64,000 nt of DNA, taken from assembly GCF_001861355.1 (NCBI RefSeq), contig NZ_MASN01000035.1, positions 310,001 through 374,000 of the forward strand. Direction: 5' to 3'. Below the pieces are notes generated by a model that was not told where the DNA came from, searched no databases, and saw only the letters and a list, made by a program, of their open reading frames with translations. A program made the position numbers and the translations under genes. Each line of letters opens with the position of its first letter. The first letter of the stretch is position 1. This DNA comes from Natrialba sp. SSL1. Its GTDB lineage: Archaea > Halobacteriota > Halobacteria > Halobacteriales > Natrialbaceae. This document shows positions 16,743-49,446 of this stretch, piece by piece.

Positions 16743-18086
16743 ATGGCCGTTGCCGATCCCGTCACTGTCGGGGTACTGAGCCTTCATACAAGTAAGGAGA
16801 CGAAAGCGATACTCAACGCAGTCGAGGACCTCGGCCACGAGACAGAGTGGTTACGACAGGAAAATACGTCGATCAGCGTCGCCGATGGGCAGGTGGTACT
16901 TGAGCCGGACGTCGACGTGATCGCCAATCGGATGTTGCTCTCGAACACCGAACAGCCAGCCGAGGAGCTTGGACTCGCGAACACGTTCGCTCGCGTCGTC
17001 CCGATGCTCAACGAGCCGGCGACGGTGCTGACGGCGATGCACAAGCTCTCGACGGCGACGACGCTCGCGATGGCCGACGTGCGGACGCCGGACGTTGTCC
17101 TCGCACTCAGCAGCGACGAGCTGAACGCGGTTCGCAACCAGTACGGCGAGGAGGCGGTCTACAAGACGGCGATTGGCACCCACGGCGGCGGAACGTGGAA
17201 GGTCGGCCCGGAGGATCCGATCAACGCCAAGGTTGGCAATCGCTACGCCTTCCTGCAGGAACTCATCGACCGCGACGACGAGCGCCACCGCGACGTGCGA
17301 ATTTACGTCGTCGACGGCGATATCATCGGCGCGATGTACCGCTACGCGCCGGACAACGACTGGCGGACGAACGTCGCTCTCGGTGGCAGCGTCGAGGATG
17401 CGACCGACGATCTGCCGCCGGATGCCCGGGAACTGGCGACACGAGCAGCCGACGCCATCGGGCTGGACTACGCCGGCGTCGACCTCGTCGAGAGCGATGA
17501 GGGCTGGTTCGTCCTCGAGGTGAATCCGACAGCCGGCTTCAAGGGGCTCTACGAGGCGACCGAGATCAGCCCGGCACCGCACATTGCCAAGCTCGCAATC
17601 GAGCGGGCGGGCGGAAGCGTCGACGAGGGCCGCGTGCAGGAGCTTTCGACGCGACTCGACGATTCGACACCGACGGCCCAACCGGTCGCTCGAACCGTGA
17701 CGGAAACAGAGCCAACCGTCGTCGGCTACACTGAGGAAGTCGTCCTCTCCGGAACGAGCGGATCGACGTCTGTGCTGGCCAAATCGGACACTGGTGCGAC
17801 CAGAACGAGTATCGATACCGGGCTCGCAGCGGAGATCGGCGCCGGCCCAATTAAATCGATCACGCGCGTCAAATCCGGCAGCCGGAAGACGGCGCGTAGC
17901 CGTCCGGTCGTCGACGTCGTCGTCGGTGTTGGCGGCAATCAACACACCGTGACCGCGAGTATCGAGGATCGGGACCACATGGATTACCCCGTCCTGCTCG
18001 GTCGGGACATCCTCTCGAACTACCGGGTCGACGTTGGTCGGCGCGCGGATCGAGATGCCGAAGACCGCCCCGAGGAAGAGGAGTAA
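16743..18086 (+). CDS. RimK-type ATP-grasp ligase fused to a retropepsin-like domain
   Basis: This 447-residue protein has two parts. Residues 1-295 form a RimK/LysX ATP-grasp domain: a preATP segment (VTVGVLSLHTSKETKAILN), KTAIGTHGGGTWKV as the ATP-binding loop, YVVDGDIIGAMYRY, and metal-binding FVLEVNPTAGFKGLYEAT. Residues about 320-447 form a small beta-rich domain with AKSDTGATRTSID and YPVLLGRDIL. This is the pattern of the RimK-associated aspartic (retropepsin-like) protease-like family, often annotated as ATP-dependent zinc protease. RimK enzymes add amino acids, usually Glu, to a protein or small-molecule acceptor. The fused domain could bind or process the product; this is inferred. 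Confidence 0.88.
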   Translation: MAVADPVTVGVLSLHTSKETKAILNAVEDLGHETEWLRQENTSISVADGQVVLEPDVDVIANRMLLSNTEQPAEELGLANTFARVVPMLNEPATVLTAMHKLSTATTLAMADVRTPDVVLALSSDELNAVRNQYGEEAVYKTAIGTHGGGTWKVGPEDPINAKVGNRYAFLQELIDRDDERHRDVRIYVVDGDIIGAMYRYAPDNDWRTNVALGGSVEDATDDLPPDARELATRAADAIGLDYAGVDLVESDEGWFVLEVNPTAGFKGLYEATEISPAPHIAKLAIERAGGSVDEGRVQELSTRLDDSTPTAQPVARTVTETEPTVVGYTEEVVLSGTSGSTSVLAKSDTGATRTSIDTGLAAEIGAGPIKSITRVKSGSRKTARSRPVVDVVVGVGGNQHTVTASIEDRDHMDYPVLLGRDILSNYRVDVGRRADRDAEDRPEEEE

Positions 18087-48834: not shown

Positions 48835-48978
48835 CTGCGTGTTCGAGGGGCTGGGACTGCCACTGCCACCATATCCAGCGAATATCGCACAGACTAACTC
48901 TCCTCCCGAAACGGATTCGAACAGCGGCCGAACACGTTCGGATACAGTTGCTTTGTTCCTGACGGCCTGTACTCGAGT

Positions 48979-49446
48979 ATGACTGCCGACGCGCCCACTG
49001 ACGACAGTGCCAGTGCCAGTCCCAGTTCACCGCCAGTCGATGATGGCCCAGAGTCGGATACAAGGGCTGGCACGGAGACGACCACCGTCACCGTCCGCTG
49101 CACCGGCCACGTCAGAACCGCTCTTGGAACACACGAACTCGAGTACACCTTCCAGGGAACGCGACTCCGCGAGTTCCTCGAGTCGTTCTTCGACGAGTTC
49201 GAAGCACACGACCTCGAGCCGATGCTGATCGCCGAAACAGAAGCCGACGCCACCGCACGCGGTTGGGCACCGGTCCCCGACGAGTTGCCGGGCACCTGGC
49301 GAAAGAATCCCGAAGGCGAGCAGACGCGGCCCTACGCGCGGGTCTGTATCAACGGTCGGTTCAACGAACACGACGCGGGGTTCGATACGGAACTCGAAAA
49401 CGGCGACCGAGTCGCGCTGGTCTATCCGTTCATGTTCTGCTGCTGA
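48979..49446 (+). CDS. MoaD/ThiS-like beta-grasp protein ending in Cys-Cys
   Basis: This 155-residue protein has a Ser/Pro/Asp-rich tail (about residues 1-35) and then a ubiquitin-like beta-grasp domain (TVTVRCTGHVRTALGTHELEYTF; FLESFFDEFEAH; RVCINGRFNEHDAGFDTELENGDRVALVYPF). MoaD, ThiS and SAMP proteins end in Gly-Gly, which is adenylated and carries sulfur or is conjugated. Here the last residues are FMFCC. The protein may therefore carry sulfur on Cys, act as a scaffold, or bind a metal. It is monocistronic and just upstream, on the opposite strand, of pccA. The palindrome ACTCGAGT directly abuts the ATG. Confidence 0.75.
   Translation: MTADAPTDDSASASPSSPPVDDGPESDTRAGTETTTVTVRCTGHVRTALGTHELEYTFQGTRLREFLESFFDEFEAHDLEPMLIAETEADATARGWAPVPDELPGTWRKNPEGEQTRPYARVCINGRFNEHDAGFDTELENGDRVALVYPFMFCC

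Follow-up and report, generated by a model that had tools for sequence, protein, structure and literature searches.

A MoaD-like beta-grasp protein family of Halobacteria with a conserved cysteine tail and links to denitrification genes

The ubiquitin/MoaD fold is defined functionally by its glycine C-terminus. The 64,000-nucleotide stretch of Natrialba sp. SSL1 DNA analyzed here (contig NZ_MASN01000035.1, positions 310,001 to 374,000, referred to below as the window) carries a gene for a small protein that looks like a member of this group and ends in two cysteines, which raises the question of what a MoaD-like protein might do with such an end. A double-cysteine end was noted as early as 2010 in a passage by Makarova and Koonin (PMC2948915) on arCOG00539, a Halobacteria-specific beta-grasp ubiquitin-like family; the name occurs once in the main text of that paper, without context or function, and the paper terms the terminal glycine crucial. 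The window family is most likely arCOG00539, a match that rests on the description and not on an accession. A literature search found no other paper using the name and no denitrification role for a MoaD or ubiquitin-like protein in haloarchaea, and the terms MoaD and ubiquitin are absent from the main texts of an RNA-seq paper on H. mediterranei (PMC11218638) and a paper on haloarchaeal denitrification (PMC7754194). New here is a link to denitrification for a cysteine-tailed oddity whose CC end has been known since 2010.

The protein and its fold

48979..49446, forward strand: gene for the Cys-tailed MoaD-like beta-grasp protein, 155 aa plus stop, ATG start; identified by its open reading frame, 141 distinct haloarchaeal homologs and its predicted fold

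The translated reading frame ends in PFMFCC followed directly by the stop, so the MFCC end that a sequence-only reading of the window had noted in place of Gly-Gly is exact. The protein scores 19.5 bits against Pfam ThiS (PF02597; curated cut-off 22.5 bits) and is likewise below threshold for NCBIfam moaD_arch/SAMP1; three other ThiS-family matches in the same genome lie above the cut-off. At E <= 0.01 the ThiS profile matches 66 of 68 aligned homologs (best 6.4e-8). An AlphaFold2 model built from 68 sequences predicts a beta-grasp domain with an ordered core (mean pLDDT 80.4, pTM 0.67) and a tail, residues 153-155, with pLDDT below 50. The PDB structures nearest to the model are SAMP1, HVO_2177, MoaD and CysO, with VIA-align Z scores of 10.9-12.8 for CysO 3dwg, the MoaD-related 1v8c, SAMP1 2l52 and 3po0, and HVO_2177 2m19. 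Model and structural matches thus back the ThiS/MoaD-type beta-grasp domain proposed earlier from the letters alone. The window protein shares fold and strand order with these known proteins, but its family lacks Gly-Gly in all 141 homologs and has an inserted W-x-K-N-P-E-G-E-Q segment.

Another ThiS-family protein of the genome (L164, G000:C41:40037-40297) reads ...FPPVAGGGRPQL before its stop, with GG not terminal; it may need trimming, or its 3' end may have been misread.

Distribution and conservation of the cysteine tail

The family was found in 185 of 292 sampled Halobacteria genomes. Occurrence outside Halobacteria was checked and rejected: 196 genomes sampled across the phylum yielded 21 matches at E <= 1e-8, every one from the order to which the window belongs. 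Of the homologs compared below, a first 43 came from named genomes; with further loci added, the set comprises 163 loci, reduced to 141 distinct sequences. Two segments stand out in the alignment:

49306..49323, forward strand: codons for residues 110-115, the conserved loop NPEGEQ, degenerate in a few copies that lack the penultimate Cys
49426..49443, forward strand: codons of the tail PFMFCC, in which residue 154 is the near-invariant Cys and residue 155 varies (C, L, V or F)

The penultimate residue is Cys in 139 of the 141 homologs. At the final position 103 homologs have C, 16 have L, 13 have V and 7 have F, with R and G once each, so that 38 end without a Cys. Of the Cys-Cys end described by the sequence-only reading, the first cysteine is thus conserved in the family and the second is not. 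For the same reason a strict CC motif and a tail disulfide, which had been put forward as one possible use of the end, are ruled out as general features and as a general mechanism. A frameshift that had destroyed a Gly-Gly end, raised as a check on the original observation, is ruled out as well, because the PF-x-[FY]-C-x end is kept in frame by all 43 relatives from named genomes. L165, a SAMP1-type protein and one of the three ThiS-family matches above the cut-off in the window's genome, ends in FPPVSGG, and the family tail aligns with it in register, which places the invariant Cys where the first Gly would stand. The conserved unit is therefore P-F-x-[FY]-C-x, corresponding to the P-P-x-x-G-G of the carriers. 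This differs from arCOG00539 as described, namely as CC-ended, in that the penultimate Cys is the conserved unit and a denitrification link is added.

Adenylation and thiocarboxylation, or SAMP-type conjugation, use a C-terminal Gly-Gly, which is found in none of the 141 homologs. From what is established about ThiS, MoaD and ubiquitin activation, a protein with C, L, V or F as its last residue is very unlikely to be adenylated by an E1 enzyme, and the earlier expectation that the standard chemistry is lost appears to hold for the whole family. The Ser/Pro/Asp N-terminal tail, which had also been thought unusual, varies in length and shows no conservation, and is for that reason probably meaningless.

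The W-x-K-N-P-E-G-E-Q segment is conserved almost as strongly as the tail Cys. Two distinct tandem paralogs in one genus lack the Cys, with tails PFLFAP and PFLFAPRS, and have the NPEGE loop replaced. The two homologs of the 141 without a penultimate Cys are L096 (genome G038), which ends in YLFMFRC and has KDPVSEQ in place of the loop, and L152, which ends in PTALAVG, an unrelated tail, and keeps the loop. The joint loss of Cys and loop in the tandem paralogs and in L096 suggests that loop and tail may work together. As to the copies themselves, one tandem paralog is found at L054 (frame 1953-2388) and L060 and L024 share one paralog; these Cys-less, NPEGE-less genes suggest themselves as structural or regulatory copies. 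L096 is a degenerate copy, and its genome has no NirK, qNor or NosZ matches.

A denitrification operator upstream of the gene

48929..48940, no strand assigned: CGAACACGTTCG, which fits the consensus of the haloarchaeal denitrification operator and lies 39 bp ahead of the start codon

As a section of Miralles-Robledillo 2023 (PMC10062603) reports, the four H. mediterranei denitrification promoters share the semi-palindrome CGAAYATDKTYG, mutagenesis shows that it matters for the nos and nor promoters, and the motif occurs at 83 promoter regions of that species. The motif therefore marks a broad regulon. Two exact matches to the operator were observed in the window against 0.27 expected from shuffles; the second, at 16978-16989, lies inside a RimK-like gene and is probably a chance occurrence. 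The loose form of the pattern occurs 68 times in the 4.58 Mb of the window's genome, and a lone site therefore proves little. The evidence lies in its recurrence at the family gene.

Of the 141 family genes, 98 have the operator CGAACNNGTTCG immediately upstream, against 70 among the 1102 other ORFs (>=150 aa) of these loci. Sites with an AC, GT or AT centre number 112 in 1.9 Mb of context, 85 of them within 240-bp windows upstream of family genes. The operator is present upstream at least once in 32 of 44 genera checked, and in the loci examined it precedes none of the genes for AccC (0/25), UspA (0/17), PurF (0/16) and canonical MoaD (0/14). No exact match was found upstream of the remaining 43 of 141 family genes. 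Taken with the neighbouring genes described below, the operator suggests that the gene may belong to the denitrification regulon and that its product would be made during nitrogen-oxide respiration.

This promoter element also bears on the view that the family is a degenerate or ordinary sulfur carrier whose tail has no function of its own. Scores below the Pfam and NCBIfam thresholds would fit such a view, but the tail Cys and the NPEGE loop are strongly conserved in the 141 homologs and the promoter element is conserved too, which speaks against drift, and we regard this view as highly improbable.

Gene neighbourhood

Gene calls in the relatives were made with a home-made codon-usage caller, and the neighbour counts given here (within 3.5 kb, 141 loci) are minima, some loci having only about 1.5 kb of flank. 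The labels AOR, canonical MoaD and DUF2249 come from reading the sequences, and other family names from profile matches. The most frequent neighbour is a COX1-like membrane protein, at no fewer than 31 of 141 loci, followed by a pseudo-SAM protein (TIGR04347) and a putative CGCGG RiPP (TIGR03995) at 27 or more each, a radical SAM protein (TIGR04053) at 25 or more, DUF420 at 18 or more, the Htur_1727 RiPP at 17 or more, an HTH_10 regulator at 13 or more and DUF2249 at six or more. Related genomes also share housekeeping neighbours (PurF in at least 16, AccC in at least 14 and UspA in at least 13 of 141 loci). The COX1-like protein, for example that encoded at L010:8417-9757 on the reverse strand in a relative, scores just under the Pfam COX1 cut-off; its gene is mostly divergent, and 26 of 32 copies are preceded by the operator.

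NirK was found at 11 or more and qNor at six or more of the 141 loci. Adjacency was also computed from whole-genome coordinates for 43 places of the family gene and 49 of qNor or NirK picked by eye, so that the counts are lower bounds. At least 21 genomes have qNor no more than 330 bp from the family gene, divergent in 18 and co-directional in 3, and at least 10 have NirK downstream on the same strand at a distance of up to 400 bp. The qNor query gave a weak oxidase match in NCBIfam; its identification, initially from size and position, was confirmed by the NorB domain PF22085 and NO reductase structures. In the window itself the family gene is flanked by UspA and biotin carboxylase genes and by no denitrification gene, the co-location being seen in relatives; NirK and NosZ matches are present elsewhere in the window's genome.

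A position next to the NO-producing NirK and the NO-consuming qNor would suit a thiol that reacts with NO or with oxidants, the tail Cys being nitrosated or oxidised and the protein acting as a sensor, a buffer or a binding regulator instead of a carrier. The HTH_10 regulators near the gene and the loss of activation chemistry are consistent with this, but the protein has no sensor output domain, and the NPEGE loop with the aromatic tail looks like a surface on which another protein would dock. On balance we consider a role of this kind unlikely, placing it just behind the copper-binding role discussed below.

A third possibility follows from the MoaD ancestry of the family and from the molybdenum- or tungsten-related genes at some loci. 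As an accessory of the pterin-cofactor route, the protein might dock to MoaE or supply sulfur to a Mo/W enzyme, and a canonical GG-type MoaD, a presumed TBP-fold protein and an aldehyde ferredoxin oxidoreductase do occur nearby at a minimum of 14, 14 and 6 of 141 loci. None of the 14 nearby canonical MoaD genes has the operator, however, and most of the other neighbours are heme- or copper-enzyme and radical-SAM genes, which makes such a role rather improbable. Neither MoaE nor ThiF/UbaA, the partners named in the sequence-only reading, stood out in an inspection of the recurrent neighbour clusters.

At L156, L151 and other loci the family gene stands beside a cluster of a canonical MoaD, a small protein and a 125-aa protein, each at 14 loci or more, often with an AOR (six or more). 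We interpret the small protein as a member of the TBP-fold family with a GG end in Makarova 2010.

Co-occurrence with denitrification genes

Presence of the family gene was compared with that of its partners in the 292 genomes, counting genomes with both, the family gene only, the partner only and neither; the p values ignore phylogeny. The counts were 118/67/40/67 for NirK (odds ratio 2.95, p 1.8e-5), 128/57/34/73 for qNor (odds ratio 4.8, p 6e-10) and 148/37/51/56 for CGCGG (p 2.5e-8). For NosZ, whose presence was set at E <= 1e-60 with nearly all matches near full length and none in the 292 genomes reaching the curated cut-off, they were 77/108/9/98 (odds ratio 7.8, p 3.5e-10). Stratified by genus (Mantel-Haenszel), the odds ratios were 11.8 for NosZ (z 3.9), 6.7 for NirK (z 3.5), 5.1 for qNor (z 3.7) and 4.0 for CGCGG (z 1.7); the strata cover 252 of 292 genomes for CGCGG and those plus four more for the other three. 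NosZ is the best single predictor, the family gene being present in 77 of 86 genomes with NosZ and in 108 of 206 others, and it stays predictive once NirK and qNor are used as strata (odds ratio 5.4, z 4.7). Counter to the association, the family gene occurs in 28 of the 82 genomes that lack all of NirK, qNor and NosZ, and 23 of its 185 carriers have none of NirK, qNor and CGCGG. A bacterial NarG profile, run with the pterin-cofactor route in mind, matched only 54 of 292 genomes at E <= 1e-60, over part of the model length, and carries no weight here.

The association with NirK, a copper enzyme, and most strongly with NosZ might point to a chaperone for Cu(I) or another soft metal, in which the tail thiol, joined by the second Cys in homologs that have one, would bind copper and pass it to NirK, NosZ or halocyanins. 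A thiol at the end of the chain could plausibly serve as a ligand for Cu(I). A lone invariant Cys followed in 36 of 141 homologs by a non-ligand L, V or F would nevertheless make for poor tight binding by a monomer, and adjacency to qNor, which is an iron enzyme, is as common as adjacency to NirK. Copper delivery is accordingly a doubtful alternative, though it comes second in our order of readings, ahead of the NO- or redox-reactive thiol and the pterin-cofactor role.

A possible role in persulfide transfer

The reading that we place first, tentatively and at somewhat less than even chances, is that the family protein is a thiol-tailed, adenylation-free carrier of the MoaD/SAMP fold that belongs to the denitrification regulon and holds a persulfide on its penultimate Cys in the manner of DsrC/TusE. 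A MoaD/SAMP-fold protein would thus have abandoned C-terminal adenylation and act through one thiol on a short flexible tail; this Cys would most likely carry sulfane sulfur as a Cys-persulfide, for use in the maturation or repair of a respiratory metal centre. The persulfide chemistry is proposed by analogy. DsrC/TusE and the window family share a lone conserved penultimate Cys on a flexible tail, but the DsrC/TusE fold differs from the beta-grasp, and searches of the window protein up to E 1 gave no Pfam or NCBIfam match to DsrC/TusE, so the comparison concerns the way of working only. In DsrC, according to a section of PMC3397948, persulfuration takes place solely at the penultimate Cys.

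Besides this precedent, we count in favour of persulfide carriage the near-invariant Cys (139/141) with its variable last residue, the disordered tail in register with the SAMP1 Gly-Gly, the joint loss of Cys and loop, the enrichment of the operator, the adjacency to qNor and NirK, and the co-occurrence data. Against it stand the family genes in 28 of 82 genomes with no NirK, qNor or NosZ, the 43 of 141 without an exact operator, the 23 of 185 carriers without NirK, qNor and CGCGG, the non-denitrification flanks in the window and the loop kept without Cys in L152, together with the fact that no sulfurtransferase or desulfurase was seen when the recurrent neighbours were inspected by eye.

One specific client suggests itself from the NosZ association. 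The CuZ centre of N2O reductase requires inorganic sulfide, NosDFY is thought to supply or export the sulfur, and the account of this supply in part of PMC6530538 leaves the cytoplasmic donor unnamed. The family protein could be this missing donor, its tail persulfide feeding NosDFY, which we rate as a long shot. Since 108 of 185 carriers have no NosZ match, the protein is unlikely to serve NosZ exclusively, and the proposal would require a shared role.

The family is spread across a whole archaeal class; it has kept the fold, has exchanged the first glycine for a near-invariant cysteine, and appears to have been recruited to nitrogen-oxide respiration. Should it prove to be a persulfide carrier, it would join two separate sulfur-relay principles, the scaffold of a ubiquitin-like protein and the Cys arm of the DsrC type, and open the assembly of metal centres to genetic study in haloarchaeal denitrifiers, for which, to our knowledge, few accessory proteins are known.

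The CGCGG putative RiPP

The CGCGG putative rSAM-modified RiPP of the relatives (TIGR03995; for example L010:10458-10763) adjoins qNor or NirK in several genomes, and the operator lies upstream of its gene in 21 of 27 loci. Across the 292 genomes, CGCGG and NirK occur together in 150, CGCGG only in 49, NirK only in 8 and neither in 85 (odds ratio 32), and the CGCGG protein itself looks like a component of denitrification.
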